A model generated the notes under the pieces. That model saw only the letters and a list, made by a program, of their open reading frames with translations, made no database searches and was not told the origin of the DNA. A stretch of DNA of 39,262 nucleotides from Acidobacteriota bacterium (GTDB lineage Bacteria > Acidobacteriota > Terriglobia > Terriglobales > Acidobacteriaceae), in contig QIAP01000088.1 of NCBI GenBank assembly GCA_003225075.1, positions 1 through 39,262 of the forward strand, written 5' to 3'. Shown piece by piece: positions 2,597 to 24,721 of the stretch (positions are counted from its first letter, which is position 1; each line of letters opens with the position of its first letter). A program made the position numbers and the translations under genes.

Positions 2597-3592
2597 ATGA
2601 ACTATCGCACCCTCGGACAAACCGGACTCAAAGTCAGCGAAATTGGATTTGGCGCCTGGGCCATCGGTGGAACCAGCGAAGCCGCCGGCACACAATGGGG
2701 ATGGGGCGAAACGCCCGAGAAGGATGCCATTTCCGCCATTCGGCGGGCGCGCGAATTAGGTGTGAATTTTTTCGATACTGCGGACGTGTACGGCAACGGC
2801 CGTAGTGAAGAACTGCTGGGTAAGGCGCTATCGTCAGAGTGGGACAAAGTTTATGTGGCGTCTAAAGTCGGCAATGTTGTACGCAATGGCGTCGGCATGA
2901 AGGATTGGAGCCGCGAGCACATCGTTCGCTCTTGCGAGGCCAGCTTGAAGCGGCTGAAGAAGGATGTCATCGATCTTTACCAGCTTCACAATCCTGAGGT
3001 GCGCGACATCCAGAAGGGGGATTGGCCGGAAACCCTTGAACTGCTCCAGAAGCAAGGAAAGATTCGCTGGTACGGTGTCTCGGTATTTCTTCCCGAAGAG
3101 GGTATGGCCGTGCTGGAGCGCGGCAAAGGACAAGTCATCCAACTTGCTTACAACGCACTGCGCCTCGAAATGGAGGAAAAAGTTCTGCCGTTGGCCAGGA
3201 AGAAGAACGTCGGCATTATCGCCCGCGTACCGCTTTATTACGGGATTCTGGCCGGAAAATTCAAACCAGATACCACTTTCCCCACAGACGACCACCGCTC
3301 GCACACGCTGCCCCCTGAGACCATGCGCGAACTGGTGCCAAGTGCCGATCGACTCAGAAAAATTGCCGGCGTCGCTTCCGGCGACTCCGCCGGGTTTGCC
3401 CAGTGGTCGCTGAAATTTATTCTGGCCAACCCGGCAGTCTCAACCGTCATTCCCGGAGCCCGCAACCCGCAACAGGCGGAGAAGAATGCCAGCGCCTCCG
3501 ATGGTCGCCCGCTTCAGAAGGATCAGGTCGAAACCGTCCAAAAACTTTGGCGAGATGATCCCTACTTGCGCGAGTTGCGCACCGGACTGTGA
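2597..3592 (+). CDS. Aldo/keto reductase
   Basis: A 331-residue NADPH-dependent oxidoreductase of the aldo/keto reductase superfamily (TIM barrel). The N-terminus RTLGQTGLKVSEIGFGAW is typical. The catalytic tetrad can be seen as Asp and Tyr in FFDTADVYGNGRSEE, Lys in VASKVG and His in YQLHNP. The C-terminal cofactor-binding region (STVIPGARNPQQAEKN) is also present. A TTG at 2594 directly precedes the ATG at 2597; I chose the ATG because AGGAG lies about 9 bases upstream. The substrate cannot be predicted. It stands alone between trxB and rapZ, with gaps of 139 and 169 bases. Confidence 0.85.
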   Translation: MNYRTLGQTGLKVSEIGFGAWAIGGTSEAAGTQWGWGETPEKDAISAIRRARELGVNFFDTADVYGNGRSEELLGKALSSEWDKVYVASKVGNVVRNGVGMKDWSREHIVRSCEASLKRLKKDVIDLYQLHNPEVRDIQKGDWPETLELLQKQGKIRWYGVSVFLPEEGMAVLERGKGQVIQLAYNALRLEMEEKVLPLARKKNVGIIARVPLYYGILAGKFKPDTTFPTDDHRSHTLPPETMRELVPSADRLRKIAGVASGDSAGFAQWSLKFILANPAVSTVIPGARNPQQAEKNASASDGRPLQKDQVETVQKLWRDDPYLRELRTGL

Positions 3593-4830: not shown

Positions 4831-6577
4831 ATGCGACAACTGACCCGCCTGGTGCGGTACGTGGCGCCGTACTGGTGGCAATTGCTGTCATCGCTCGTTC
4901 TGATGGCTGCGGTTGGACTGCTGGATGCTTTCCGCGTGCTGCTCATCGGTCCGATTTTCGACCGCGTGCTGAATCCGGCAGCGCAATCGCGCGATATTCA
5001 ATTGTTTAGACTTCCGTGGACGGGCCGGGAGATCCACCTCCAACAATTCGTACCCTCACACTTCCAGAATCCTTGGACGGTCGTGGCTTTCGCACTGATC
5101 GCGGCCACGGTACTCAAAGGGATTTTCGATTACGCTGGCACGTACCTGGTGAATTATGCCGGTTTCGGCATGATTACCGATCTTCGAGATGATCTTTACA
5201 ACGCGATCCTACGGCGCTCTGCGGCGTTTTTCCAGACGCACACGACCGGCTCGCTGCTCTCCACCATCATCAATGACATTGAACGGGTGCAGTTTGCCAT
5301 GTCCAGTGTGCTGGCGGAGTTCCTCCAGCAGTTGTTCACTCTGATCTTTGTCGCCGCTGTAGTGGTTGTTCTCGGGGGCAAACTAGCCTGGGTATTGGTC
5401 TTGTTTCTGCCGGCGATTATCTATTCCGCAGGAAAAATCGGTGGTCGGGTACGCCACACCACGCGGCGCGGCCAAGACAAACTGGCGGATATCCAAAACA
5501 TTCTCCACGAAACCATCACCGGAAACCGCATTGTGAAGGCATTCGGGATGGAAGGATGGGAAATAGCGCGATTCCGTTTGGCGGCGCGGCGCCTGTTCCG
5601 AGCCAATCTTCGCTCAGTTGCGGCGGCAGCGATCAGTTCACCGCTGATGGATATCTTCGGTGCGGTCGCCATCGCAATGCTGTTGCTCCTGGGACGAGAT
5701 GAGATTAATCATCACATCTTTACCGCAGGCACCTTCCTCGCTTTCATCGTGGCGGTATTCAAGCTTTACGATCCGGTACGCAAGTTCGCGCTCTTTTACA
5801 ACAATTTTCAGCAGGCGCTGGGTGCATCGTCGGAATTGTTCAAATTCATGGACACGGAAGACGACGTTCGAGAGAATCAATCTCGAGGTCAAAGCCGGTG
5901 AAGTGCTGGCGGTGGTCGGTTCGAGCGGAGCGGGAAAAAGTACCCTGGTACATCTGATCCCTCGCTTTTTCGACGTGACGTCCGGGCGTCTACTAATTGA
6001 TGGCCGCGATGTCCGCGATACTACACTTGCATCTTTGCGTTCGCAGATCGGCATCGTGACTCAGGAAACGGTACTGTTCAATGACACGGTGCGCAACAAC
6101 ATTGCCTACGGACAGCCGCATGTTTCACAGAAAGACGTGCAAGCGGCAGCCCAGGCGGCGATGGCCCATGACTTCATTATGGAACTGCCCGCAGGCTATG
6201 AAACGATGATTGGGGAGCGTGGGGTGCGTCTCTCGGGAGGCGAGCGGCAGCGCCTTGCAATCGCGCGCGCCATCCTGAAAAATGCGCCTATTCTGATTCT
6301 GGACGAGGCCACTTCGGCCTTGGACAGTGAGTCGGAGGCGCTGGTGCAGTCGGCGCTGCAAAACCTTATGGCCGGACGTACGGTGTTTGTCATTGCCCAC
6401 CGGCTCTCGACAGTGCGGGGGGCGGATCGGATCCTGGTGCTGGAAAATGGCACTATCAGTGACATCGGCGCTCATGAAGAGTTGATGACCCGCCTGGGCA
6501 TCTACCGTCGACTCTATGATCTGCAATTTGTGGAACTGGAAGCGCCCAAGGTTCCGGCGTTGCCGGCGAATCATTAG
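4831..6577 (+). pseudogene. MsbA-type ABC exporter, broken by an internal deletion and frameshift
   Basis: The first part (start ATG 4831, MRQLTRLVRYVAPYWW) encodes an ABC exporter transmembrane domain of the MsbA type, including the coupling-helix region SLLSTIINDIERVQ. This frame reads to a TGA at 5899-5901. The nucleotide-binding domain continues in the +1-shifted frame from about 5864 to 6577. It has Walker A GSSGAGKST, Q-loop TQETVLFND, signature LSGGERQR, Walker B ILILDEATSALD and H-loop AHRLS. The two halves meet at 5864-5876. Relative to the family, the linker and the start of the nucleotide-binding domain, including the A-loop aromatic residue, are missing (roughly 35-50 residues). 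An intact protein would flip lipid A-like or other lipids. As sequenced it cannot be made in one piece. The start could also be the ATG at 4699. Confidence 0.85.
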
Positions 6578-10760: not shown

Positions 10761-13196
10761 ATGCCCGAATTCTGCGATGTTGCGCTCCCGGTGCCCCTCG
10801 ACACCGCTTTCACCTACCACATCCCGGATGGCCTCGAGCCGGTGGTCGGCGGGCGGGTGTTGGTGCCCTTTCGGCAGCAGCGCATGTCTGGCATCGTCGT
10901 AGACGCACATAATCGCCAGCCTTCGGTAAAAACCAAGGATATTCTCAACGTTCTTGATGTCGCTCCTGTGCTCGACGACTCGCTCATGCGCCTGGCCAGG
11001 TGGATTGCGGATTACTATCTCGCGCCTTTGGGAGAAGTATTTCGCACCATGCTGCCTCTCGGCGCGGAATTCAAACGCGCTATCGCCTATCGCATCACGG
11101 AGGAAGGTCGTCTCGCACTTCACCAGGCAGGCATGTCGGGATCGTCGGCGCGGTCGCGCCGGACTCCGGAAGAACAACTGACAGAATTTCGTGTTCTCGA
11201 TTATCTGGGTGCCCGCGACACGGTCCGCGAGGAGAGCCTGCGGGCGGTGGCGCGAGTCAGCAAGACATTGCTCTCCGGGATGGGCCGCAAGAAATGGATC
11301 GTGCGCGAGGATTTCTCCGGTGTGCGTGATGCCACACGAACTGTGAAAGTCGCGATACTGAAATCCGCCGATTGCAAGCTCAATGAAAATCAGAGCCTGC
11401 TGGTCGATACCTTAGCCGCCGCGGGAGGCCGGGTCACCGTCGAAATTCTGCACACTTTGGATGTCCCACGCACCACACTCGGAACGCTGGTTAAGCGCGG
11501 ACTGGTGGAGATTGCAGAAGAACCCGAGCAGTTTTCGGTCTCCGGCCTGAAGGCCAGGCGGTCACCATTTGACTTTCAATTCAACAGCGCGCAGCAGGGT
11601 GCCTTAAAACGCATTCGGGAAGCAGTCGACTCACGAACATTTTCCGGAATGCTGCTGCATGGTGTGACCGGATCAGGGAAAACTGCCGTATACCTGGCTG
11701 TCATGCGGGCCGTGCTCGAGGCCGGCCGCTCGGCCATTTTGCTGGTTCCTGAAATCGGCCTAACTCCGGCGATGGCTGCGGATCTACACCAGGTCTTTGG
11801 GAACGAAGTAGCAATTCTCCATTCTGCGCTCTCCGATCAGGAGCGCACCGAACAATGGCATCGCATTAAGCGAGGCGCGGCCCGCATTGTTGTAGGCACT
11901 CGCTCCGCCGTTTTTGCGCCGGTTGCCGACTTGGCGCTGATCATTGTGGATGAAGAGCAGGACTCATCCTACAAACAGGAAGAGACCCCTCGGTATCACG
12001 CGCGAGACGTAGCGGTAATGCGCGCCAAAATGGCGAATGCGATCGTGGTACTCGGATCAGCCACGCCATCACTCGAATCGTATTTCAACGCGAAAAAGAA
12101 GAAATATGCATTGGTCGAACTGCCCGACCGCGTAGAGCAGCGGCCTTTGCCAGAAGTTGAAATCATCGACATGCGGCAGGAGTTTCAGGAAACCGGACAC
12201 GAACAGGTCATCTCGCGCAAGCTGACGGAGGAGATCAAAGAGCGCTTGAGCCGGCACGAGCAAGTGATGGTGCTGCTCAATCGCCGCGGATACTCACCTG
12301 TGGTGCTCTGCCGCACTTGCGGCAAAACGCTGGAGTGCAAGAACTGCGCCATCGCTCTCACCCATCACAAACGCGCCCGGAAAATGCAGTGTCACTACTG
12401 TGGCTATACCGCTCCCGTGCCGCAGCACTGCATTCATTGCGGCAGCGAATACGTGTATTTCCTTGGCACAGGCTCGGAGAAGCTGGAAGAGTTGCTGCAT
12501 GGCCTGTTCCCCGAGGCGAGAATCGGTCGGCTCGATCGCGACACGGTGCGCGGGCGAGACGACTTCGAACGTATGCTCGCCGGAATGGATGCCGGAGAAA
12601 TCGACTTGCTGGTGGGCACGCAGATGATCGCCAAAGGCCACGACATTCATAATGTGACGCTGGTCGGCGTGGTCGGAGCCGATATGGCGTTAGGTATGCC
12701 CGATTTCCGCGCCGCAGAGCGCACCTTTCAATTGCTCACACAAGTTGCCGGACGCGCCGGCCGTGGCGGGACACACGGCAAAGTCGTCCTGCAAACCTAC
12801 TTCCCCGATCACTATGCGGTGCAGTTTGCCGCGAACCACGACTTCGCAGGCTTCTACGAAAAGGAACTTCGCTTCCGCAGTTGGATGCATTACCCGCCCT
12901 ACAGCGCTCTGGCCAATGTCCTGGTACGCAGCAGCAAGTTGGATGAAGCTCTGCAATGGTCAGGTACGTTGGGCAAATGGTTCGAAAGAACCAGACATGA
13001 AGGGATTCGCGTGCTCGGTCCGGCCGCAGCCCCGATTCTGCGGCTGAAGCAAGATTATCGCTATCACTTTATCTTGAAGTCCGCGAGCCGGGAAAAACTA
13101 AATACGCTTTTACGAACCATGCTCGCCTATGCGGCGCAGCAAAAAATTCCGCGCACCCAGGTGATTGTCGATGTCGACGCGCTATGGCTGATGTGA
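10761..13196 (+). CDS. priA: Primosomal protein N' (replication restart helicase PriA)
   Basis: A 3'-to-5' DNA helicase that recognises stalled forks and reloads the replisome. The 811-residue protein has the N-terminal DNA-binding domain, Walker A GVTGSGKT (residues 301-308), motif II VDEEQDSSYKQ, GSATPSLES, and the paired zinc-binding cysteines (CRTCGKTLECKNC, then CHYCGY and CIHCG). The helicase C-terminal motifs LVGTQMIAKGHD and QVAGRAGRG are also present. Motif II reads DEEQ where E. coli has DEEH. The last 15 bases overlap the convergent lipoprotein gene. A diverged, truncated copy of the last 175 bases lies at 17542-17717. Confidence 0.96.
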   Translation: MPEFCDVALPVPLDTAFTYHIPDGLEPVVGGRVLVPFRQQRMSGIVVDAHNRQPSVKTKDILNVLDVAPVLDDSLMRLARWIADYYLAPLGEVFRTMLPLGAEFKRAIAYRITEEGRLALHQAGMSGSSARSRRTPEEQLTEFRVLDYLGARDTVREESLRAVARVSKTLLSGMGRKKWIVREDFSGVRDATRTVKVAILKSADCKLNENQSLLVDTLAAAGGRVTVEILHTLDVPRTTLGTLVKRGLVEIAEEPEQFSVSGLKARRSPFDFQFNSAQQGALKRIREAVDSRTFSGMLLHGVTGSGKTAVYLAVMRAVLEAGRSAILLVPEIGLTPAMAADLHQVFGNEVAILHSALSDQERTEQWHRIKRGAARIVVGTRSAVFAPVADLALIIVDEEQDSSYKQEETPRYHARDVAVMRAKMANAIVVLGSATPSLESYFNAKKKKYALVELPDRVEQRPLPEVEIIDMRQEFQETGHEQVISRKLTEEIKERLSRHEQVMVLLNRRGYSPVVLCRTCGKTLECKNCAIALTHHKRARKMQCHYCGYTAPVPQHCIHCGSEYVYFLGTGSEKLEELLHGLFPEARIGRLDRDTVRGRDDFERMLAGMDAGEIDLLVGTQMIAKGHDIHNVTLVGVVGADMALGMPDFRAAERTFQLLTQVAGRAGRGGTHGKVVLQTYFPDHYAVQFAANHDFAGFYEKELRFRSWMHYPPYSALANVLVRSSKLDEALQWSGTLGKWFERTRHEGIRVLGPAAAPILRLKQDYRYHFILKSASREKLNTLLRTMLAYAAQQKIPRTQVIVDVDALWLM

Positions 13197-16184
13197 TGGC
13201 ATCGCTTCTCCGCACAAGGATCGCGTCGGCGTGGTTACGTCAGCATCGGGATAGTCCGCAGACGGTCCGTCCAGCAAAGGATCCACTGGTTTGCCCCTAA
13301 GATTCACGTCGAGGAACGCAGCAATGTAGTCCCGAATTGCTGATACGGTTTTCTCCGTGCCCGCGGTGCCGGTCTTGATCACACCCTTCGCCAGCCAGAC
13401 CGCATCGGTTGGCGTCACATGCTCGGAGGCCCGGAGATTGACGGCCAGTCGCGGGCCGCGTAGTTCTCCCCACAGGCGGCACTCATCTTCACCCCACTGC
13501 TCGCGACCTGCAGTCAGAATGAGGACAGGCTTCTTTGTCGCGCTGAAAACAGAATCCGGGACGACACCATCGATGAAGATGCCTGCCCGAAAGCGGGGCT
13601 CTTGTTGGAGGCTAAGGAGCGCAGTCAATCCGCCGATGGAGTGACCTGCTACGGCGACGCTGGCCATATCTAATTGCCCCAGGAACGGGCTCTGCGGGCT
13701 AGCATTTAGGCGCTCCAATTCATTCACAACGAATTTCAAGTCGCCCAGCCGAACCGAAACGGCGAAGGAAAATGCCTCCTCGTCATTTCGCACTGTCTTT
13801 CCAAGATGGCTTCCAAAAACGGATTTGACAAACCGGCCATCGGGAAAATCGACGGCTGTCGCCTCGTAGGTGTGATCCACCGACGCCACTACATATCCTC
13901 GGCTGGCTAGGTCCTCAAATAGAAATGTGTAATCGGTGAACGTGCCGGTATAACCATGTGTAAAGACAACTACGGGATGGGCACCTTCTGTAATCGGAGC
14001 ATTCAGGCAGCTATTTGTCGTCAGCCGGGGCAGCGAGATTCCCAAGAGCTGAGAAAAGTAGTTCCAAACCATTGGTGGGGTATATTCCGCCGGCTTGCAG
14101 CCTCCAGCGACGGACGCCGGATACCAGAACCGCACCAGCAGATCCCGCTTGGCGCCGTTGGCTAGATAAGGATCGTCGCGCGTTGAATCCACCAACTCTA
14201 TGACGCGCGTTCCGACCTTGCCAGGCCCGCTGGGGCGGGGCACGACGGACGTCTTTTTCGCGGCAAGAGCGGACTGTACGGCCAGGTTCAGGCTTGCCGT
14301 TGTAATACATTTGCCCCGAATAATAACGCAACCCTTGCCCGATAGACCCACCAGCTGGGGGCTGCCGGCACTATCGTCGGTGATAGAAACATTGGCGAAA
14401 CGTGACCCTTTCACAGTTGGCTTGAAGGTCACGGTGATGCCGCAGGAGTTTCCGGTTCCAACGCTGGGGATACACGTGTTCGTCTGGAAGAAGTCACCGG
14501 GATCGGCTCCCGCGATATTGACGGCGCTGATGTTCAGCGTCCCAGCTCCAGTATTGGTAAGCGTGGTCGTCAGGGGCAGGCTGGTCGCACCGACGCGTAC
14601 TGTGCCAAATGACAGGTTCGCTGGAACTAGCTTCACGGTGCCGACAGTGAGGGTGATGGTCGCGCCCGTGGTTTTGGTCGGGTCAGTGACCGAAGTCGCG
14701 GTAAGAGTCACCATGGCGTTAGCCGGTACTGTCGGGGGCGCAGTATAAGTAGTTGCCGCGCCGCTCCCCGTGCTGGCAGGCGCGACCGTCCCGCATCCCG
14801 GAGAACATGCGGTTGTGCCTTGCGTAAGCGCCCAGCTAACACCTTTGTTATTCGGATCATTGCCGACAGCAGCTGTGAACTTGGTGGCGTTTAACTGAGT
14901 GGTTGCGTTTACCGGGATGAGCGCGCTGCCCGGTGAAACCAAGACTGTGACAGCTAAGACCGTCACAATTGCGGACGCTGCCTTGGAAGTATCGGCGACT
15001 GAAGTGGCGGTGATGATCACGTCCAAGTCGCTCGGCGGCGGGGTCGAGGACGCAGTGTACGTAACAGCGGCCCCGCTCAGGCTCGAAGTGGGTGCGACAC
15101 TGCCGCATGGCGCCCCAGAGCAGGACACGGTCCAGTTGACTCCCTGGTGGGATGGATCATTAGCCACAGTTGCCGTGATTGACGACGTGCCACCTATCTG
15201 CACCCTGGGAGGTTGAGGTCCATTGGTGATGGAAACTGCTATGGCCGGGACGGTGACAATGGCCGAACTCGACGCCAATGGGTCTGCCACTGAGGTAGCT
15301 GTGACGGTCACGGTCAAGTCATTCGCAGGTGGGGTGGATGGGGCGTTATACGTGACCGCAGTAGTTGTGGGATTGGTCAGAGATCCTGCGCCGGACGCGG
15401 GAGAGAGGCTCCAGGTTACTCCCTTGTGCGCAGGATCGCCCTGAACTGTCGCCGTAAAGGGTTGCGTGCCGCTCCCCTGCACTGTGGCGGTTGTCGGCGC
15501 GACGGAAACAACCACCGTGGGAACGGTGACGGTTACTGACGCCGACTTCGAGGTATCAGTCACTGAAGTAGCCGTAATGGTCACGACCAGTGCACTCGTC
15601 GGCGGGGTGTTCGGGGCGTGGTAGGTCACCGAAGAGGTGCTCGTATTGCTGAGGGTCCCTGCGCCCGACGCGGGGGATATGGCCCAGGTGACACCGCTGT
15701 TGGTTGGATCGTTGTTCACAACGGCGGTGATCGCCAGCGAGCCAGTTGCTTGCACTATGGCAGTGGTCGGGGACGCCGAAATCGTGATGGCTGAGACAGT
15801 GACGCTTGCAGCGCCTGACTTGGAGGTATTAGCGACGGCAGTAGCTTTGATGGTCACCGTCAAATCGCTCGGCGGCGGCGCGGTCGGAGCATTGTACGTT
15901 GCAGGGGCCCCACTCAAGCTCGAACTGGGTGACACGTTACCGCATTGCGAGACTCCGCACGATACAGACCAGGCAACGCCCTTGTTTGAGGGATCGCTGT
16001 TCACAGTGGCGGTGATCGGCACCATGCCCGCAGCCTGCACCGTAGGAATGGACGCGGAGACTGAAACCGTGATTGCGTCGTTTGGTGGTGGCGCAGCGAT
16101 TGCTGGCCCGCCACCACAGCCGGTGATGAAGGTTCCCAAGGTCAACCCAAGGAGCGCAACGGCAAAATAGATTGTGCGTTTCAC
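13182..16184 (-). CDS. Lipoprotein with five Ig-like repeats, an ASH-type domain and a PAF-acetylhydrolase-like domain
   Basis: A 1000-residue exported protein. The signal sequence ends in a lipobox (FITGC, Cys23), so it is probably lipid-anchored. About five repeats of roughly 90-100 residues follow (about 37-545), each with a V-x-ITATV-x-x-DP-x-x-x-GV-x-W core and a YNAP/YTAP-PPS-x-L turn, typical of bacterial Ig-like domains. Next comes an ASH/HYDIN-like domain (LSFGTVRVGATS ... GLSGKG, about 550-645). The C-terminal alpha/beta hydrolase has VVFTHGYTG as oxyanion region and GHSIGG as nucleophile elbow (Ser849), with Asp872 and His922 as likely partners. The 23-residue Ser-to-Asp spacing fits plasma PAF-acetylhydrolase. 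The start is a GTG preceded by GGAGG. The substrate is unknown; an extracellular ester or lipid is likely. Confidence 0.82.
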   Translation of the reverse strand: MKRTIYFAVALLGLTLGTFITGCGGGPAIAAPPPNDAITVSVSASIPTVQAAGMVPITATVNSDPSNKGVAWSVSCGVSQCGNVSPSSSLSGAPATYNAPTAPPPSDLTVTIKATAVANTSKSGAASVTVSAITISASPTTAIVQATGSLAITAVVNNDPTNSGVTWAISPASGAGTLSNTSTSSVTYHAPNTPPTSALVVTITATSVTDTSKSASVTVTVPTVVVSVAPTTATVQGSGTQPFTATVQGDPAHKGVTWSLSPASGAGSLTNPTTTAVTYNAPSTPPANDLTVTVTATSVADPLASSSAIVTVPAIAVSITNGPQPPRVQIGGTSSITATVANDPSHQGVNWTVSCSGAPCGSVAPTSSLSGAAVTYTASSTPPPSDLDVIITATSVADTSKAASAIVTVLAVTVLVSPGSALIPVNATTQLNATKFTAAVGNDPNNKGVSWALTQGTTACSPGCGTVAPASTGSGAATTYTAPPTVPANAMVTLTATSVTDPTKTTGATITLTVGTVKLVPANLSFGTVRVGATSLPLTTTLTNTGAGTLNISAVNIAGADPGDFFQTNTCIPSVGTGNSCGITVTFKPTVKGSRFANVSITDDSAGSPQLVGLSGKGCVIIRGKCITTASLNLAVQSALAAKKTSVVPRPSGPGKVGTRVIELVDSTRDDPYLANGAKRDLLVRFWYPASVAGGCKPAEYTPPMVWNYFSQLLGISLPRLTTNSCLNAPITEGAHPVVVFTHGYTGTFTDYTFLFEDLASRGYVVASVDHTYEATAVDFPDGRFVKSVFGSHLGKTVRNDEEAFSFAVSVRLGDLKFVVNELERLNASPQSPFLGQLDMASVAVAGHSIGGLTALLSLQQEPRFRAGIFIDGVVPDSVFSATKKPVLILTAGREQWGEDECRLWGELRGPRLAVNLRASEHVTPTDAVWLAKGVIKTGTAGTEKTVSAIRDYIAAFLDVNLRGKPVDPLLDGPSADYPDADVTTPTRSLCGEAMPSHQP

Positions 16185-16661
16185 TGTGCCTCCGCAAGTC
16201 TGTAGTCGCGATGGCCGTGGACAACACGAACGATGTCTTCGAATCGAGCCGTACCGGGCTCAACAGCGCGGTGAACCACGGCGCTACTCTACTTCTTCTT
16301 CTGCGATTAGCACTCTGTCATGGGGCGGAGAAGAAGTTGATGATGACCGCGCCTTGAATCAGCCCTGCAAAAGGAAAGGATGCCTCTTAAGGATTAGAAA
16401 TCGGGACCGCTTCTACGGCGCGCGCATTCTCTGCGCATCACAAGCACTTGTCAAGACAATTTCTGTGTCTAGTCTTGGGAATAGTAGCCGCCGAAAGGTT
16501 CGGACTAGCAACCCGTGGTACAAGTCGTGATCTTCACGCAACTTGCGGCCGCCGGCAAGTCCGTCGTCGTGACCCACATCGTCGGTTGTCGCTCGCGTTT
16601 GCGCTTGCCCATCGCCATGACCGCAGTATAGTACCGGCATCGACTGACCATTCATTCGTAG
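16185..16661. other. Intergenic region between divergent lipoprotein and reductase genes
   Basis: This stretch separates two divergently transcribed accessory genes. I see the lipoprotein gene's ribosome binding site at its left end and a candidate promoter for the reductase at 16605-16632. No convincing small gene, RNA or repeat is visible in the rest. Confidence 0.5.
16605..16632 (+). promoter_or_regulatory. Candidate sigma70-type promoter for the RibD/DHFR-like gene
   Basis: TTGCCC (16605-16610), a 16-base spacer and TATAGT (16627-16632) lie about 60 bases before the proposed GTG start at 16692. The spacing and hexamers fit a sigma70-type promoter. Sequence evidence only. Confidence 0.35.
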
Positions 16662-16691
16662 ATGTCGACTCAGGACCTGGAGGGGACCGCG

Positions 16692-17237
16692 GTGGCGAAG
16701 CGAAAAATCATCGTTCACATCGCGACGAGTGCTGATGGTTACATCGCTCGACCTGACGGCAACGTCGACTGGCTGACGAATCGGCCGGCGCCGAAAGGTT
16801 TTTACGGCTTGCCAAAATTCATGCGCACGGTCGACGCGAAGATTCTCGGTCGAAAGACTTTCGACCTGAGCGTCAAGATGGGCGCGAACTTCAGCGCAAA
16901 TGACGTGCACTACGTGTTCTCGCGTCAGCCGCCCCCTCCATCGGTCCCCGTCGGCGTCCGTTTCGTGACACAGCCGATTACTGCGTTCGCGAAACAGATG
17001 CGCGCTGAAGCCGGAAAGAATATTTGGATGATGGGCGGCGGCGAGCTCATCGGCTCCTTCCTCGATGAAGGGGCGATCGATGAGTTCATCATCAGCGTCA
17101 TCCCGACGTTCATCGGCGAAGGCATACCGTTGATAGCGCCTCGACATCGACAGGTGCCGCTCCGCTTGCTGTCTGTGCAACGGTTCTCAGACGGCGTTGT
17201 CCAACTTCACTATCACCTGCGGCAAACGGCTGGATGA
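16692..17237 (+). CDS. RibD C-terminal / dihydrofolate reductase-like protein
   Basis: A protein of about 181 residues in the dihydrofolate reductase-like superfamily (RibD C-terminal type, also called YyaP/YwjB-like). These NADPH-dependent reductases often have unknown substrates. Visible signs are IATSADGYIARPDGNVDW near the N-terminus, LGRKTFD, the phosphate-binding loop IWMMGGGELIGSFLDEG and the C-terminal IPTFIGEGIPL. I prefer the GTG at 16692 because GAGGGG lies just upstream and the family start is then at the first beta strand. An ATG at 16662 would add ten residues. It lies within the accessory region between priA and the M50 gene and is followed by gene-end fragments, so it is probably acquired cargo. 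Confidence 0.8.
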   Translation: MAKRKIIVHIATSADGYIARPDGNVDWLTNRPAPKGFYGLPKFMRTVDAKILGRKTFDLSVKMGANFSANDVHYVFSRQPPPPSVPVGVRFVTQPITAFAKQMRAEAGKNIWMMGGGELIGSFLDEGAIDEFIISVIPTFIGEGIPLIAPRHRQVPLRLLSVQRFSDGVVQLHYHLRQTAG

Positions 17238-17441
17238 CACCGCGCAAACCGTTTGAAGCAGCGCATACTTTCGCCACAGGCTGCTAGGGATTACGAGCCA
17301 ATTTTGGTCGCTGCGTGAGACAAGTCTGCAAGTCAGTGCGCATTTGCTCCGTCAGGATCACCCCGCTCGTGATACCTGGAAATACCGACTGCTGACGGCT
17401 GAACGCCAGTCACTCGACAGCCGAAACCCGAAAACTGCTCT

Positions 17442-17541
17442 CTACCGTCCCGTCCGGATCCCCTGTACCACTACCCGCAGCGAGCTATGTGCGAAGGGCG
17501 CGGGCGTTAGCGTCAGGATCAGCATGATCAGTCCAAACACT
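17442..17541 (-). pseudogene. Truncated copy A of the M50 protease 3' end
   Basis: About 100 bases are nearly identical to the 3' end of the M50 gene (genuine locus starting at 22499), in the same orientation. Read on the minus strand they give VFGLIMLILTLTPAPFAHSS and the final residues up to GIRTGR and a TAG stop. There are only a few differences from the genuine sequence (one Glu to Val plus silent changes). The similarity breaks off at about 17541 and passes directly into a copy of the priA tail. It is too short to be a gene. Confidence 0.88.
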
Positions 17542-17717
17542 GGCCGCAGCCCCGATTCTGCGGTTGAAAGCAAGATCATCGCTATCACTTTATCTTGAAG
17601 TCCGCGAGCCGGGAGAAACTAAATACGCTTTTACGAACCATGCTGGCCTATGCGGCGCAGCAAAAAATCCCGCGCACCCAGGTGATCGTCGACGTGGACG
17701 CGCAATGGCTGATGTGA
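17542..17717 (+). pseudogene. Truncated copy of the priA 3' end
   Basis: This matches the last 175 bases of priA (13022-13196), including the TGA stop, with one extra A in the run after GCGGTTG (about 17564-17568). Downstream of that insertion the frame is that of priA. The base differences there are nearly all in third codon positions (for example GAA/GAG, CTC/CTG, ATT/ATC twice, GAT/GAC and GTC/GTG), with one Leu to Gln change. Similarity stops immediately after the stop codon. It has no start of its own and is a remnant. Confidence 0.9.
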
Positions 17718-17823
17718 CCGGCGCCCTCCGCGCGAAAATGCCACTTGATTCGGCGCTATCCAGCATGACCTGGAATATAATTCTCGCCACTTTCATCTTC
17801 GGGAGTGTCTTCGAGAGTGGGTG

Positions 17824-18678
17824 ATGGCCTCGCTTCGCATATTTGTTGCCGACGAGCATGAGATTGTGCGGCGCGGGACAATTTCGCTTCTGGCTTCTGA
17901 GCCCGGCTGGGAAGTTTGCGGGGAAGCTGGTGACGGGCAGGAGGCTGTCGCGAAAGTCGCACAGCTTAAACCCGACATCGTCCTGCTGGACATCGGCATG
18001 CCCAACATGAACGGGTTGGACGCAACACGCCAGATAGTGCATAACCCTCCATTTCCAAAAGTCATAGTTGTGAGCCCTACTGATGTGGAACAGCTTGTGC
18101 GTGAAGTACTGGACGCTGGTGTGCGTGGCTTTGTGCTAAAGACAGATGCTTCGCGGGACTTGGTCTCAGCAGTTGAGGCCCTGCAACACGGGCGGACCTT
18201 TTTTGCGCCCCGCGTTGCAGAATTTATAGTTCAGGGTTATCTGAAAGGCGGCAGCAAAGACTCGTCGGAGCCGTCCGTAAAGACGGTCCAGCCCGGAACC
18301 GGAGTTTTGGACGAAGCAGTCGCCTCGAGTGTAAGACAGGCGAACAAGTCCGGCGTGGCCCGCGCCGTAGCGAAGTACCTGGCGATAGCACTAATTCTGG
18401 CGGCGACTGCGACCATCGGGTGGTTCAGCTTCTATCGAGACTCAGCCCTGCAATTGCCGTTACTCGACAAAATGCGTGCCTACCTCGGGCTGAAAACGCC
18501 TCCGCCTCCCACCTCCAACGGCAACCCCGACACGAAAGTGTGGATTGACCTGCGCACCGCGCTCTACTACTGCCCCGGTGCATCTTCTTACGGTAAGACT
18601 TCTAAGGGGCGGTTCGCGAAGCAAAGCGATGCCAAGCAGGACCATTTCGAACCCGCCTCCGGTAAGATGTGTGATTGA
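17824..18678 (+). CDS. Response-regulator receiver domain fused to a membrane segment and a small C-terminal domain
   Basis: A 284-residue protein. Residues 1-125 form a CheY/NarL-type receiver: acidic pair D10/E11, phospho-acceptor D56 in DIVLLDIGMPNMNG, Ser in VVVSPTD and Lys in GFVLKTD. The usual LuxR-type DNA-binding helix-turn-helix is absent. After a linker there is one transmembrane helix (AKYLAIALILAATATIGWF, about 178-196). A C-terminal region of about 45 residues (VWIDLRTALYYCPGASSYGK ... SGKMC) has two cysteines and resembles a small domain I recall from other acidobacterial proteins. The protein may therefore be a membrane-anchored phospho-switch with an extracytoplasmic tip. No histidine kinase gene is adjacent. 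A GTG at 17821 is an alternative start. Confidence 0.82.
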   Translation: MASLRIFVADEHEIVRRGTISLLASEPGWEVCGEAGDGQEAVAKVAQLKPDIVLLDIGMPNMNGLDATRQIVHNPPFPKVIVVSPTDVEQLVREVLDAGVRGFVLKTDASRDLVSAVEALQHGRTFFAPRVAEFIVQGYLKGGSKDSSEPSVKTVQPGTGVLDEAVASSVRQANKSGVARAVAKYLAIALILAATATIGWFSFYRDSALQLPLLDKMRAYLGLKTPPPPTSNGNPDTKVWIDLRTALYYCPGASSYGKTSKGRFAKQSDAKQDHFEPASGKMCD

Positions 18679-18880
18679 CCTGCTCTTCGCAAGACATGAA
18701 GGCATCGGCGTACTTAGCTACGGCCGCAGCCCCCGATAACAGCGACGGCTGTCTGCTGTTACCTCTACGCGGTTCGCAAGACTCCGGATACAAATTCCCG
18801 CAGATGATTGTTTGTTGTGTCTTGATGTCAATTGGGGCGTCACAGGAGAATTGCCACTCTTGTTCGGAGGCAGGGGCCAA

Positions 18881-19085
18881 CGCCACTACCGTCCTGTCCG
18901 GATCCCCTGTACCACTTCCCGCAGCGAGCTATGCGCGAAGGGCGCGGGCGTCAGCGTCAGAACCAGCATGATCAGTCCAAACATTGCCAGCCATATGCGC
19001 ACCCCCGAGACACGCGGCAAATCTGCGACTTGAGGATGCCGGAAGCTTGAGATCTCCAGCAGAATCGCCCAGACTAGCCAGCCAG
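18881..19085 (-). pseudogene. Truncated copy B of the M50 protease 3' end
   Basis: These 205 bases align without gaps to 22494-22698, the 3' end of the genuine M50 gene, with roughly 96 percent identity by eye. Read on the minus strand the copy keeps the M50 frame (GWLVWAILLEISSFRHPQV ... GIRTGR and stop), with conservative changes such as Val to Met and Ile to Val and one Trp to Val. Similarity ends abruptly at 19085. The rest of the gene is absent, so this is a remnant, not a gene. Confidence 0.92.
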
Positions 19086-19138
19086 ACTGTTAGCTTTGCC
19101 CTGGCAACACGCCGAATGCAGACCTCAGCCGGAGATTG

Positions 19139-22100
19139 CTATTCCACCCTACGCACAGTGTCGGTTGGCATGAGGACAAAACTGCAACCGGTGCTTGGAT
19201 AGCACGCCATAATGCCACGACGTACCAATCGGCCGGAACTATTTTCGGGAAAGGCCACCTTGAAGTGGGCCTGACCCAGTACTTTTCCAGCGGAACGCAA
19301 ATTGTCAGAGCCGCTGATGAACTTCGTATCCTCAACCTTCGGGCCCGGCGCAAATAAAAGGAAGAACTCTGCGCTGGCGTGCTGCGTAACCAGCTTTGGA
19401 AGGGAAATCGTGCGGTCCCTGCTCAGTTCATCAGCGGCGCGATCGACCTGGAAGTGGCCTGTTCGGTTCGCAGTGACCGGCGCGTTCAGATGCTTCAAAC
19501 GCTGTCGCGCTTCCGTAAGCACTTCTGTCTCTTCCGCTCCTCGGGATTGCTGCTCGCTGACGAGCCGGTACATGTGTGCAGCGTCCTGTTTGCGCTGCTG
19601 CTTCTCGTAAACTTGGCCCAGGTGATAACCAACTGTGGCAAACTGTTGAACTGTCCAAGCTGCGTAGAGATACCCTTCGGCTTGTTTCAGATTTCCCAGT
19701 TGATAGTGTACCCAACCCAATGTATCCCAGTACGCAGCCAGACTGAGGGTATACTTCAGATCGTCATCAGCCAGTTTACTAAGTTGGACTTTCTGGGAAG
19801 CGGCCTCCTCTTCGTGGACAGCTTCCAGGGCATACCGTAATGCTTCATCCAAATGCTTATTAGCGACCGCTAGCTCGTAGGCGACATTATTTTTTACGCT
19901 CGCTCCGGGTTGGAACTCTATAGCCTTATTGAAGAGTGGGAGCGCTTTATCATCCTCTCCTTTTCGTAAGTAGGCTAATCCCAAGCTAAGCAGTGGTCCT
20001 GGTCTTTGTGGATATAGTCTTACGGCTGATTCAAGGTAGGGCAGAGCCTCGGGATATCGTTTCTCAGCACTAAGCAGGTTGCCCATGTTGGTGGGGATGT
20101 CGTGATCGGCCGGCTCAACTTTCGCCAATTCCTGCCAAACCTGGATGGCTTCACTGCGCCGGTTCAAGGACGTCAGGGCAAAAGCAAGTACCTTATAAGA
20201 GAGGGGCTGCTGGGGATCGGATTCTACCGCCTGCCGCAATGCGGCCACGCCCGCATCTTTTTGCCTCAACCCTAGATACGTTTCCCCAAGCCATATCCAA
20301 TCGCGAGTGAATTTAGGATCCTGTGAAACCGCCCGTTTAAAACCCTCGATTGCGCCCTGCGGTGAACCCTGCTGCACGGCTGCCTTAGCTTCTTCTTCGA
20401 ACTGACGTGCCATTGGATCGCTGCTGTCCGGAAGCGCCCGCACCCGATTAGTCACGCCCAGGACCCCTGCTTCAGCTGACTCAGCCAGGCCCGAGGAAAG
20501 CGGAATGAATTGGTCCCGGTCCTCAATCACTTTCTCTGCAAATTCCTTGTAGCTCTTGACTCCGGCCCCGGTAACCTCGCTAGCTTTGACCAACACTCGA
20601 TAGTGCGAGACAAGCACATTTCCTTCGAGCGCATAGGTCGAGTGATATTCGATGAGGTCCTGCTGGAGATCTTTCTTTTTGGGAAGATCGGGAGAGTAGC
20701 CCTTGGGGAGTTCTACTCTGGATTCGAATTGAAACTCGCCCGGCGCGCCTAACCAGAAGGATGCCGGTAGCTTGCCATCCTCCTCGCCGGGTGGAAAAAC
20801 TACGTTGGGTGCAGGAGGAACAATGCGGTGCTCCTTCCAGTCCGGATAGTCCTTACGTTGGTAGGTGTACGCGAATTTTATCGGGGCTTCGGTTGATTCA
20901 GGCGCCGAGGCCGTAACATCGCTAACCTCGCCCGCGAATCCAGTGCCATACGAAATTCTTTGGATGAGATCCTTCCACTGCGCCCTCGGCAGACTTCGTA
21001 AAGCAGCGCGCAAAATAACTTCCGTGTCCCCGCGCATGGTCTGTTCGACCTTGCCTTGGAGGGTGCCCGAGTCATCCAGTTTGGCATCGATTCTGAAAGT
21101 CCATAAAGTCGGAAAAGGAGGATCGGCGGGAGTCTGCTGAAAGTCGGGCGGCTTGTCGGAGAACACGACTAACGCTCGTTTCGCGCGCAGTGGCACGGCC
21201 AGATATCCGAATGGAGCCACTTCCGTTGTGGTGTCGAGCCAAAGTGTGTCTTTACCCTGAGGAACCGCCGTAATGACATGATCAAACTGTCCGGGGGACG
21301 GCACGTCTGGATCTATTGCGTGGGACGAATTGATTAGGGCGGGATAAACTCGAACCCCCGCAGCCGCAAGCAGGGACGCTAATAAAGTGTGTTTGTCTTT
21401 GCAATCACCGTACTGATTGTTCAACACTTCGGCAGCGGAATGAGGTTGGTAACGTCCGATACCAAAAGAAACTCCGATGTATCGAAAATCAGTGCTCACG
21501 TACTTGTAGATGGCCCGCAGCTTAGCGGCGTCGTCAGGGGCATTGCGACTAAGTTCGGCGGTCTTCTCCCGAATCTCCGGTGAGGGAACAATTCGCTCAC
21601 GTTGTAATCCGTCATACCAGCGCCCTACCTCCTCCCAGCTTTGAAAGCTACTTAGCTGAACGTCCGGAGGCGCCAGCCTCCCATGGATCGCGAGTTGAAC
21701 TGCGTCGGCCTTTGATGTGGTTGCGCGTTCCAAATTTGAGCGAATCCACTTATAGACGCGACGTTGGCCATCTTCGGAAATAGTTGGCGGCGCGCCGGAA
21801 CTTTTGATCTTTACCGCCCGGTCGTGCGGCACGCTTATCTGCAACTGCTGTTTCAGAACAACGTCGTCGTGCGAAAAAGCGAAACTCGTCCAGAACTGAC
21901 CTGGAACAAGTGGTTTCGTCTGACGCCAGTGGCATTGCCACTCGAGCACGTCCCCAGTACTCAATCCTTTGACGGGTGCATGCTTTTCGCGCAGGTCGCT
22001 GTAGAAAGGGGCTTCCCGCGTGATATTCGACGGCATATCCTGAACATCGTCAAGAGGAGTAGCGACGATTGAACCATCAGGCTTGCGTACCCGGATGTAG

Positions 22101-22381
22101 TCGATTTCGACAGTCTCGACCGATTTTTGATAAGAGAATGTCAGCAAACCAAAGCGTTGCACGCCGGCGTCAGACTGCATCCGCACCCGTGCCAGACTAT
22201 CGCGGGTTGACGTTCCATCATTCTCAAAGCTGAAGGAGTCCGTGTTCTCCTCGACCACAAAAGCTTCCGCGGAGTGGTCAGGCTGAAGTCCAGGGCTGGC
22301 CTTCTTTCCATCTTGGGCCGTTGAGGTCGGAAAAGCGTTGCAGAGAAACAGAAGAAACAAGCCGAACACACGGCATGACAT
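19139..22381 (-). CDS. Exported DUF3857/transglutaminase-like protein with TPR repeats
   Basis: A protein of about 1080 residues with a signal peptide (MSCRVFGLFLLFLCNAFPTSTAQ). The N-terminal part is a DUF3857-type beta domain (about 45-250). The transglutaminase/cysteine-protease-like core has Cys in NNQYGDCKDKHTLL (about 327), His in QFDHVITAVP (about 368) and Asp in LWLDTT (about 383), so the catalytic triad is complete. TPR repeats occupy roughly residues 640-960 (for example PLSLGLAYLRKGEDDKALPL). The conserved C-terminal tail includes FISGSDNLRSAGK and RRGIMACYPSTGCSF. It is probably periplasmic, with an unknown substrate. A GTG at 22390 is an alternative start. The gene lies immediately inside the genuine M50 gene end and reads in the same direction as M50. 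Confidence 0.86.
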   Translation of the reverse strand: MSCRVFGLFLLFLCNAFPTSTAQDGKKASPGLQPDHSAEAFVVEENTDSFSFENDGTSTRDSLARVRMQSDAGVQRFGLLTFSYQKSVETVEIDYIRVRKPDGSIVATPLDDVQDMPSNITREAPFYSDLREKHAPVKGLSTGDVLEWQCHWRQTKPLVPGQFWTSFAFSHDDVVLKQQLQISVPHDRAVKIKSSGAPPTISEDGQRRVYKWIRSNLERATTSKADAVQLAIHGRLAPPDVQLSSFQSWEEVGRWYDGLQRERIVPSPEIREKTAELSRNAPDDAAKLRAIYKYVSTDFRYIGVSFGIGRYQPHSAAEVLNNQYGDCKDKHTLLASLLAAAGVRVYPALINSSHAIDPDVPSPGQFDHVITAVPQGKDTLWLDTTTEVAPFGYLAVPLRAKRALVVFSDKPPDFQQTPADPPFPTLWTFRIDAKLDDSGTLQGKVEQTMRGDTEVILRAALRSLPRAQWKDLIQRISYGTGFAGEVSDVTASAPESTEAPIKFAYTYQRKDYPDWKEHRIVPPAPNVVFPPGEEDGKLPASFWLGAPGEFQFESRVELPKGYSPDLPKKKDLQQDLIEYHSTYALEGNVLVSHYRVLVKASEVTGAGVKSYKEFAEKVIEDRDQFIPLSSGLAESAEAGVLGVTNRVRALPDSSDPMARQFEEEAKAAVQQGSPQGAIEGFKRAVSQDPKFTRDWIWLGETYLGLRQKDAGVAALRQAVESDPQQPLSYKVLAFALTSLNRRSEAIQVWQELAKVEPADHDIPTNMGNLLSAEKRYPEALPYLESAVRLYPQRPGPLLSLGLAYLRKGEDDKALPLFNKAIEFQPGASVKNNVAYELAVANKHLDEALRYALEAVHEEEAASQKVQLSKLADDDLKYTLSLAAYWDTLGWVHYQLGNLKQAEGYLYAAWTVQQFATVGYHLGQVYEKQQRKQDAAHMYRLVSEQQSRGAEETEVLTEARQRLKHLNAPVTANRTGHFQVDRAADELSRDRTISLPKLVTQHASAEFFLLFAPGPKVEDTKFISGSDNLRSAGKVLGQAHFKVAFPENSSGRLVRRGIMACYPSTGCSFVLMPTDTVRRVE

Positions 22382-22498
22382 AAGTGCCACTTATGTATAT
22401 GAGTTTCCACTAACAAGCAAGTAAGAAACGCAAGTATACGTTGGCAATAGCTGAGTCTTGCCGATGAAATGCTTTACACCAGGAAGCTCACCTCGCCA

Positions 22499-23521
22499 CT
22501 ACCGTCCTGTCCGGATCCCCTGTACTACTTCTCGCAGCGAGCTATGTGCGAAGGGCGCGGGCGTCAGCGTCAGGATCAGCATGATCAGTCCAAACACTGC
22601 CAGCCATATGCGCCACCCCGAGACACGCGGCAAATCTGCGACTTGAGGATGCCGGAAGCTTGAGATCTCCAGCAGAATCGCCCAGACCAGCCAGCCAGCC
22701 CAGAAGTAAACCGCCATGGGCAGCAGAATCAGGATGGTCAGCCGGGAAACGAATTTGTGCGCTCGTGGGGCGATCGAGAACACGATGTGTCCGCCATCGA
22801 GCTGGCCTCCCGGCAAGAGATTCAGCGAGGTGGCGAACATTCCGACCCAGGCAGCCAATGCCACGGGATGCAAATTCGCGCGGAACAACGGCAAAGTGGC
22901 GGCGCTATTTGCCGCACTGGACGAAGCCAGCAGGCGATGCATGAGTTCAAAAATCAGTGGGTATCCGAGCTGAATGTCTGATACTGCCAGCAGCGGCTTG
23001 GAGAGTCCTAGAGACGCGACCAACACCACCAACGCGACCACAAACCCGGCAATCGGCCCGGCAATGCCAATATCGAATAACGCCGTACGTGAGCGAATGG
23101 GTGAGCGGATGCGGATGAATGCTCCCAGAGTTCCAATCAGAGTCGGCGCGGGAATAAAAAACGGCAGCGTGGCGAAGACGCCGTAACGTTTGCAATAAAG
23201 ATAATGTCCCATTTCGTGCGCCAACAGGATCAGCATCAACGTGCCGGCGAAAGGAATGCCCAGCAACAAACGAGAGGGCTGCGAAAATGCCCAGCCGATC
23301 GGGAAGAAAGAAAAGAGCCCGTCGTCATTCAAGGAAAAAACTGGCTGGTTGCGCAGGAAGTTGTCTTGCATGTGTGCCCCGACGACAAGTGTCGTGAGCA
23401 CCGTCAGCAACAGCAGAAGCGCGTGCAACCAGTAGCGTTGTTTGCGCGCGCGGGGCACCCAAACTGGCATCGGTCGGTAATATTCAGCCGTGGAAGTTAG
23501 CGGAGGACTGGGATCCGACAT
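22499..23521 (-). CDS. M50-family (site-2-type) intramembrane metalloprotease
   Basis: A membrane-embedded zinc protease of about 340 residues. The zinc-binding HEMGH motif lies in LILLAHEMGHYLYCKRYG, and the second conserved motif NLLPGGQLDGGH supplies the third ligand. Several hydrophobic segments surround both. Family members cleave membrane-bound regulatory proteins or signal peptides; the target here is unknown. The ATG at 23521 (MSDPSPPLTS) gives a sensible cytoplasmic tail. A further 30 residues are open to an ATG at 23611, but neither start has a strong ribosome binding site. The last 205 bases of this gene occur twice more, truncated, at 18881-19085 and 17442-17541. Confidence 0.86.
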   Translation of the reverse strand: MSDPSPPLTSTAEYYRPMPVWVPRARKQRYWLHALLLLLTVLTTLVVGAHMQDNFLRNQPVFSLNDDGLFSFFPIGWAFSQPSRLLLGIPFAGTLMLILLAHEMGHYLYCKRYGVFATLPFFIPAPTLIGTLGAFIRIRSPIRSRTALFDIGIAGPIAGFVVALVVLVASLGLSKPLLAVSDIQLGYPLIFELMHRLLASSSAANSAATLPLFRANLHPVALAAWVGMFATSLNLLPGGQLDGGHIVFSIAPRAHKFVSRLTILILLPMAVYFWAGWLVWAILLEISSFRHPQVADLPRVSGWRIWLAVFGLIMLILTLTPAPFAHSSLREVVQGIRTGR

Positions 23522-23642: not shown

Positions 23643-23912
23643 TTAATCGATGGACTGCAACTCTTTGCCCGGCTTGAAGCGCACCGCTTTGCCGGGTGGT
23701 ATTGATACTTCAGCGCCAGTCCGCGGATTGCGACCGATACCGGTCTTGCGCGGACGGACGTTAAACACGCCAAAGCCCCGCAGCTCAATACGATCACCCT
23801 TGGTTAGCGCCTTCTTCATGCTATCGAAGACGGTCTCGACAGCCAGCTCAGCTTTGGTTTTGGTAATTCCGGTTTTGGTGACTACTTCATTAATAATGTC
23901 GAGCTTGATCAC
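23643..23912 (-). CDS. HU/IHF-family DNA-binding protein
   Basis: A small nucleoid-associated protein of about 89 residues that bends DNA as a dimer. The HU/IHF signature GRNPRTGAEVSIPPGKAVRFKPGK, split as GRNPRTGAEV and IPPGKAVRFKPGK, is clear. The N-terminal helices (IKLDIINEVVTKTGITKTKAE) look IHF-alpha-like. The start is best set at the GTG at 23912, because CGGGAG lies six bases upstream. A TTG at 23930 would add six residues that include this ribosome binding site. A good promoter lies upstream at 23958-23986. Confidence 0.92.
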   Translation of the reverse strand: MIKLDIINEVVTKTGITKTKAELAVETVFDSMKKALTKGDRIELRGFGVFNVRPRKTGIGRNPRTGAEVSIPPGKAVRFKPGKELQSID

Positions 23913-23957
23913 AGGCGACTCCCGGTTCAAGAGTGCAGTCAGAGCACCAAGTGCTTG

Positions 23958-23986
23958 ATGCTAAGGGACATAAGGTAGATTGTCAA
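23958..23986 (-). promoter_or_regulatory. Sigma70-type promoter of the HU-family gene
   Basis: On the minus strand a perfect TTGACA (23981-23986) is followed by a 17-base spacer and TAGCAT (23958-23963). The predicted transcript would begin near 23951, about 40 bases before the GTG start. A small palindrome, AGCACCAAGTGCT (23943-23955), sits at the predicted start site and could be an operator, but that is only a guess. Confidence 0.6.
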
Positions 23987-24049
23987 CGGCACACTCACTC
24001 CCGTAAGATGGCTGCACCCTCAATCGTGCGCAGATCAGCCAGCCTTTCA

Positions 24050-24157
24050 AAGAATTGAGTAATTTTGTAATCGGGTAATTTGATAATTTGCAAAGCAGGC
24101 CGGTGATCATCCGTTCCAAATTACTCACTTACAAAATTACTCAATTACCCAATTCTT
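24050..24157. repeat. AT-rich imperfect inverted repeat upstream of dcd
   Basis: The left arm (24050-24090) contains AAGAATTGAGTAATTTTGTA-like sequence. The right arm (24117-24157) contains its imperfect reverse complement, ending CCCAATTCTT. Each arm is also internally repetitive, built from variants of GGTAATT/GAGTAATTTTG. It is far more AT-rich than its surroundings. It ends directly before AAGGAG, the ribosome binding site of dcd, so a transcript from upstream would carry a large hairpin just before the gene. Confidence 0.7.
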
Positions 24158-24169
24158 CTAAGGAGCAGC

Positions 24170-24721
24170 ATGCTAAAGAGCGACCGTTGGATTCGTCGGA
24201 TGGCCCACGAACATGACATGATCAATCCGTTTTCCGAGAAGCAGGTTCGAGAAGGCGTGGTTTCCTATGGCCTTTCTTCCTATGGATATGACCTGCGCGT
24301 GGCTGATGAGTTCAAGATTTTTACCAATGTAAACTGCACCGTTGTCGACCCCAAGAACTTCGATGAGCGCTCGTTCGTCACGGTACGTTCGGATTGCGCT
24401 ATCGTCCCGCCTAATTCTTTTGCCTTGGCGCGGTCGGTCGAGTACTTCAAGATTCCTCGCGACGTGCTGACTATCTGTGTCGGGAAGAGCACTTACGCAC
24501 GTTGCGGGATTATCGTCAACGTCACCCCATTTGAGCCAGAGTGGGAAGGCTTCGTCACCCTCGAAATCTCCAACACAACCCCGCTTCCGGCTAAGATCTA
24601 CGCCAATGAAGGCTTGTGCCAGATCATCTTCTTTCAAGGGGATGAAGTCTGCGAGGTTAGTTACGCCGATCGCAAAGGCAAGTACCAGTCGCAGAAGGGA
24701 ATTGTGCTGCCGAAACTGTGA
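24170..24721 (+). CDS. dcd: dCTP deaminase
   Basis: Deaminates dCTP to dUTP, feeding dTMP synthesis. The 183-residue protein matches the family length and has [29 protein letters not shown], the substrate/catalytic region [20 protein letters not shown] and the catalytic Glu in [14 protein letters not shown]. The C-terminus [19 protein letters not shown] is typical. AAGGAG stands five bases before the ATG. It could be a bifunctional dCTP deaminase/dUTPase, but I see no clear dUTPase feature. It is transcribed alone, with minus-strand genes on both sides. Confidence 0.95.

Follow-up and report, generated by a model that had tools for sequence, protein, structure and literature searches.

The interval between priA and the M50 protease gene

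The 39,262-nucleotide stretch analyzed here (the window) is contig C256 of an Acidobacteriota draft genome (G000; 4.79 Mb in 259 contigs, 97.6% complete), and our subject is the interval in it between priA on the plus strand and a gene for an M50 metalloprotease on the minus strand, which converge, with the genes for HU and then dCTP deaminase lying beyond the M50 gene. Between these two anchors lie accessory genes, referred to here as cargo, and among the cargo genes sit relics of the 3′ ends of both anchors, giving the order [priA-cargo-M50 end][priA end-cargo-M50 end][cargo-M50]. The original prediction, made from the sequence, had described four accessory genes with extra priA and M50 3′ ends between them, and every one of these fragments was recovered at the same coordinates by repeat search, self-blast and codon comparison (Table 1).

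Each resident-relic pair is ~95% identical. The priA 3′ end at 13022-13196 matches the relic at 17542-17717 at 166 of 175 positions, with one inserted base that breaks the reading frame, while the M50 3′ end at 22499-22698 matches 18886-19085 at 191 of 200 positions, the similarity extending 5 bases beyond the stop codon to 18881, and the terminal 100 bases of the M50 gene match 17442-17541 at 95 of 100. The blast E-values for the three pairs (~1e-39, 1e-73, and 1e-91) exclude chance similarity. All of the relics keep the orientation of the parent gene and extend to its stop codon, and the shorter M50 relic abuts the priA relic directly at 17541/17542. Searches of the genome against itself placed the priA end in two places and the M50 end in three, all inside the window, so that the dispersed repeat named beforehand as an observation that would tell against the prediction was not found, the fragments being unique to the window within the assembly. 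The predicted lack of a transposase or integrase was likewise borne out, as no such Pfam domain was detected in the four cargo genes or in the seven spacer and antisense open reading frames (ORFs) that were scanned.

The priA relic opens with GGCCGCAGCCCC, which occurs again at 18722, where it may mark a further priA trace or be due to chance, and once more in 651,357 bases of this genome's other DNA. We rejected this motif as a special breakpoint: intervals at other loci, too, share exact matches of 12-14 bases with gene ends or control stretches, and the priA relic of a second genome (G025, below) starts elsewhere.

Table 1. Coordinates of the anchors, relics, cargo genes and right flank of the priA-M50 interval in the window
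Feature	Position	Strand	Basis
priA, left anchor, intact, 811 aa	10761..13196	+	Pfam PriA domains; NCBIfam priA; M50-convergent in the loci of 51 relatives
priA 3′ end, recurring at 17542-17717	13022..13196	+	repeat search, codon comparison
Cargo 1a: Ig-like repeat protein with alpha/beta hydrolase domain (PAF-AH/PETase-like)	13182..16184	-	Pfam scan
Cargo 1b: RibD_C-type reductase	16662..17237	+	Pfam scan
M50 3′ end relic, last 100 bases including stop, 95/100 identical	17442..17541	-	own-genome search, codon comparison
priA 3′ end relic, last 175 bases, 1 inserted base, 9 substitutions	17542..17717	+	repeat search, own-genome search, codon comparison
Cargo 2: receiver-domain protein whose C-terminal region lies outside that domain	17821..18678	+	Pfam scan
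Possible priA trace whose first 12 bases (GGCCGCAGCCCC) are those of the priA relic; perhaps a chance match	18722..18737	+	exact-match search
M50 3′ end relic, last 200 bases and 5 past the stop, 191/200 identical	18881..19085	-	repeat search, own-genome search, codon comparison
Cargo 3: DUF3857/transglutaminase-core/TPR protein, 1083 aa	19139..22390	-	Pfam scan
M50 metalloprotease gene, right anchor, intact, 370 aa	22499..23611	-	Pfam Peptidase_M50
HU gene (minus) and dCTP deaminase gene (plus), right flank; beside M50 in relatives too	23643..24721

Divergence of the relics from the resident genes

Changes between relics and residents were polarized with the sister species G001 as outgroup and tallied by hand from the alignment, omitting the codon at M50 sites 83/84 and sites 172 and 190, which are unpolarizable. 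By this tally the relic lineages have acquired four silent and five replacement changes together with one frameshifting indel, and the resident lineages seven silent changes and no replacement (Fisher p 0.034); a looser tally gives 4:6 versus 8:0 (p 0.013), and distant relatives disagree with the G001 state at several of the polarized sites. Given the absence of replacements in the residents and the mixture of changes in the relics, the relics look to have changed without coding constraint, and the ~5% divergence of relic from resident would therefore have arisen partly after the joins. The residents differ from G001 by 20-24%, and set against this the ~5% suggests that the joins were made long after the lineage had separated from G001. 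Before polarizing, 15 of the 21 codons that differ between relic and resident are silent, but we rejected this excess as proof that the relics are working genes of another strain, since the polarized silent changes lie mostly on the resident side, with the relic side mixed, a pattern that also fits duplication followed by decay.

Cargo in the priA-M50 gap of relatives

The gap was compared across 52 loci containing both genes, namely the window and 51 loci from relatives, all of which belong to other species. Excluded from this count were 6 of 80 fetched stretches without a priA end and 32 without an M50 gene downstream in the available DNA, and from a set of named genomes, which gave 15 loci with priA, six were dropped as records already counted. 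With gaps taken approximately, between the last tblastn-aligned residues, the priA-M50 gap is ≤300 bp in 27/52 loci and >1 kb in 21/52, with a maximum of 9.3 kb, which upholds the view in the original prediction that these core genes enclose a hotspot. By comparison, the neighboring HU-M50 gap exceeds 1 kb in 4/48 (Fisher p 0.0002). One genus, g7, supplies 24/52 loci and 15/21 of the long gaps, and these counts are not independent, the Fisher tests being uncorrected for relatedness; the difference is seen both outside g7 (priA-M50 gap >1 kb in 6/28 versus HU-M50 in 0/25, p 0.024) and inside it (15/24 versus 4/23, p 0.003), where 8 of the 24 priA-M50 gaps are ≤300 bp. The convergent arrangement persists in six more distant Acidobacteriota whose priA is 42-61% identical, indicating that the pair is old. 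Judged by the M50 gene, the closest named relatives are metagenome-assembled genomes of Acidobacteriota, some of them labeled peat or palsa.

The same two conserved genes thus flank a variable region in the window and in the loci of the 51 relatives, with different whole-gene cassettes in the gap between species and genera. The relatives' cargo includes OmdA/YdeI-like, cytochrome c-like, DUF1697, phosphorylase-like and lactonase-like genes, an amino-acid permease, a protein of 727-765 amino acids (the one member scanned has an F5/8 type C domain), and others. In g7 the OmdA/YdeI-like gene is found alone, with a protein of 743-744 amino acids, with a permease, or with both a 347-amino-acid protein and a permease; it lies on the priA side in 5/5 cases, and each of its partners, or a homologue of the partner, is also found alone. 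Single-cargo versions of the interval, which the original prediction had anticipated among relatives, therefore exist for other cargos, alone and combined in g7, but not for the window's receiver or TPR gene, neither of which stands alone in the gap of any of the 51 relatives.

Anchor-gene relics in other genomes

A search with the priA C terminus covered 398 genomes of the family, 367 of which gave a match, and in seven there were two matches. In three of these seven (the window's genome, G025 and G036) the second match is an additional fragment, located beside an intact priA in the same contig. The rest were not counted as relics: G210 has two full-length priA frames, the second piece borders a contig edge in G236 and G258, and the extra priA end of G119 lies behind a gap of 43 Ns. 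M50 relics were sought inside the intervals only, and none was found there in 42 relatives or in the added named-genome loci.

In the case of G025, which belongs to another genus, ~142 bp of the priA coding end and ~118 bp of downstream sequence are repeated between two cargo blocks, the copies being 94% identical overall, and a genus-mate, G114, has an empty priA-M50 gap of 38 bp. The G025 relic is independent of those in the window. In G036, 67 bp of the priA end and ~21 bp beyond it are repeated 1.1 kb downstream of priA; this is likely a further independent relic, but the piece begins right after two Ns in a draft that is 76% complete with 6% contamination, and its cut point is uncertain. 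The relics are thus cut before the stop codon at 175 (window), 142 (G025) and perhaps 67 bases (G036) for priA, and at 100 and 200 bases for M50, and these differing cut points argue against a site-specific recombinase. Import in G025 was considered and rejected: the relic shows the G114 state at all five silent sites that differ, yet the identity of the resident priA to G114 is nearly flat along the gene (109-117/125 in each comparison window).

At the G119 locus (L104, G119:C145, 2748-3405) the 43 Ns of the scaffold gap separate the extra priA 3′ end from a truncated serine recombinase (Pfam Resolvase), and a neighboring ORF seems to resemble an IS110 transposase. Here, in another genus, an insertion at the end of priA may be linked to a recombinase. 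An ORF downstream of priA in G001 (L083, 356-628), near a contig end, is presumably similar to a piece of an IS1-type transposase.

Among 57 other contigs of the window's own genome (≤20 kb each, 651 kb of the 4.79 Mb), one similar short case was noted among other direct repeats, some of which were examined. This is a 105-bp, 91% direct repeat (L258, G000:C36, 108-212 and 2842-2946) that encloses three other ORFs and covers the 3′ end of a 139-amino-acid ORF (2902-3321) with ~60 bp downstream, and it is possibly a second, smaller scar in this genome.

Probable serial addition of cargo and alternative explanations

Taking this evidence together, we think that the gap is probably an integrase-free cargo hotspot anchored by core genes, in which versions of the interval were added in series, each pairing by homology with one anchor and being joined illegitimately at its opposite end. 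The simplest reading of the layout is that two or three versions of the interval were joined one after another, with the number and order of the steps inferred from that layout; the versions would be [priA-hydrolase-reductase-M50], [priA-receiver-M50] and probably a third, [priA-TPR-M50]. Joining of strain versions in tandem had already been proposed in the original prediction, and its serial part is supported; that the versions came from different strains would follow from the layout, but the ~5% divergence, having probably arisen in part after the joins, does not by itself establish such an origin. The route proposed at the same time, homologous recombination at both anchors, is not supported in that form, because a double crossover alone would replace the cargo and leave no relics, and each relic instead needs one illegitimate join.

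In each addition an incoming linear piece, presumably from a donor of the same or a close species, would pair with one homologous anchor, the body of priA being the simplest choice, and its far end, lying 100 or ~200 bases inside its M50 gene, would be joined illegitimately to resident DNA. An earlier event would have placed [priA-receiver-200 bp of M50] before [TPR-M50], and in a later one [priA-hydrolase-reductase-100 bp of M50] would have paired with the priA body while its far end joined the resident priA at a point 175 bases short of the stop codon, the displaced tail-ends staying behind and then decaying. The context of this later join is one-sided, with an intact priA at the left and a nonhomologous join of M50 relic to priA relic at 17541/17542. 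The G025 relic can be explained in the same way, the far end then lying in cargo, and the G036 relic perhaps also. The genome encodes Ku, which was found in 1/14 control genomes, and a ComEC-family protein, found in 10/14, and with these genes present end-joining and DNA uptake are possible. A broader proposal, which we advance only tentatively, is that in Acidobacteriota the gap gathers cargo by addition and not by replacement, via one-sided homology and Ku-type end-joining, and that the tail-ends of the anchors record the order of acquisition.

Several observations weigh against serial addition. The silent sites give no sign of a foreign origin for the relics, the third version ([TPR-M50]) is without a priA relic, and in G025 the resident priA end shows no clear excess of divergence over the remainder of the gene. 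A short shared sequence at the join is expected of the products of homology-facilitated illegitimate recombination, and the sole join readable from both sides, 17541/17542, shares about one base (G) with the resident sequence. None of the window's four cargo genes is found in the gap of the 51 relatives (0/51), and the five multi-cargo intervals of g7 contain no relic, so that turnover there need not use the proposed route. Relics of priA are also rare, in 3 of 398 family genomes including that of the window; homology-facilitated illegitimate recombination, where measured, is orders of magnitude rarer than ordinary recombination according to the relevant part of PMC5361080, which fits this rarity.

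Four other explanations have to be weighed. The junction of M50 relic and priA relic would be produced in one step by a Campbell-type insertion, in which an end-to-end circle [175 bp priA end-hydrolase-reductase-100 bp M50 end] entered by a single crossover at the priA or the M50 end, and G025 shows the simple form of such an event, its cargo being flanked by a direct repeat of the priA end. One-sided pairing with end-joining would give an identical product, and these data do not separate the two, but the crossover would have to fall within 100-175 bp and no trace of the circle was found, the junction not having turned up in viral contigs (exact 24-mer) or in plasmid and phage collections (blastn), and we regard this origin as unlikely. 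Even less likely is a local rearrangement in one lineage, in which gene ends were duplicated or underwent template switching and the cargo arrived independently, no strain versions being involved. The differences between relics and residents would suit duplication followed by unconstrained decay, but two different cargos are each flanked by ends of priA and M50 in the correct order and orientation, and with one such interval per genome, duplication plus cargo replacement would be needed.

Integrase islands usually leave a scar in which the displaced 3′ ends of conserved genes lie next to cargo, and the relics could in principle be att-type repeats left by site-specific integrases, since lost, that targeted the priA and M50 3′ ends. 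The extra priA end of G119, across its gap from the truncated serine recombinase, is in keeping with such islands, but the ORFs scanned in the interval include no integrase, two different genes would both need to be targets, and the cut points differ, whereas integration at a single att site would cut each gene at one position, all of which makes this explanation very unlikely. A chimeric assembly of strain variants seems to us the most improbable of the four. The source is a draft in 259 contigs, and the contigs of some relatives end near priA, but the window is without N, the bases at the junction give an assembler no usable overlap, both flanks share one locus in relatives, a similar N-free relic is present in G025, and the frameshift and replacement changes of the relics would be unexpected in the working genes of a strain. 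The reading that we prefer to these four is still serial addition through one anchor.

Relation to known systems

Loci of this kind are already known, and the priA-M50 locus is a clear new example with unusually legible relics; no title on a priA-M50 hotspot or on such relics in Acidobacteriota was found in the open-licence literature. In the minimal mobile element of Neisseria, as outlined in excerpts of PMC3082526, cassettes between two conserved genes are taken in by homologous recombination, and the locus described here is similar in having two conserved genes, varying whole-gene cassettes, and no mobility genes of its own. It differs from that element, which was defined between strains, in that the comparison here is between species and in showing serial addition and relics of both anchors. 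Integrase-free hotspots with recombining core-gene flanks are widespread, 27% of hotspots being without integrases and transposases in the portion of PMC5635113 dealing with them; they share fixed core genes and variable cargo with the priA-M50 gap, which additionally needs an illegitimate join.

For the orphan immunity-gene arrays of the Vibrio cholerae type VI secretion system, the corresponding part of PMC5361080 proposes a process akin to homology-facilitated illegitimate recombination. These arrays resemble the window in serial insertion at one locus with older 3′ pieces remaining, but they consist of immunity genes in an effector locus, whereas here the tails are those of housekeeping genes and the cargo is mutually unrelated. 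Homology at one end and an illegitimate join at the other, as that process is described in passages of PMC3240628 and PMC5361080, would give the structure seen in the window, though the experiments in PMC3240628, so far as excerpted, used competent bacteria and Escherichia coli and the process here is deduced from an old natural locus. Transformation can also produce tandem duplications, by a route that requires chromosomal repeats in the account excerpted from PMC3784515.

The settling of accessory genes between core genes without an integrase is usually inferred from the statistics of many strains, and here a single locus keeps physical relics of what are probably successive additions. An independent and simpler case in at least one other genus makes the one-sided-homology route testable in a little-studied phylum, and isolated housekeeping-gene tails in a draft genome can be traces of gene gain rather than assembly errors.

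Cargo genes and other repeats

The stop codon of the hydrolase gene lies inside the priA 3′ end (13182-13196), so cargo 1a is joined at the priA stop. A homologue in G005, at another locus, ends within a few residues of the end of the window protein, and the hydrolase gene therefore looks nearly complete; a partial homologue is present in G001. In some relatives homologues of the TPR gene, and likewise of the hydrolase, sit at other loci. The best full-length relative of the receiver protein is 63-66% identical and is encoded in G100 on a different contig; in G100 priA is adjacent to an M50 end at a contig start, and this locus is outside the 52.

Two further repeats were noted in this genome. 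Between the HU and dCTP deaminase genes, at 24053-24146, there is an inverted repeat with 30-nt arms, 90% complementary, around a 34-nt spacer. In another contig (L249, G000:C27) a 475-bp, 94% direct repeat occupies 2947-3410 and 5468-5942, mostly outside the longer ORFs, and is perhaps a dispersed element.

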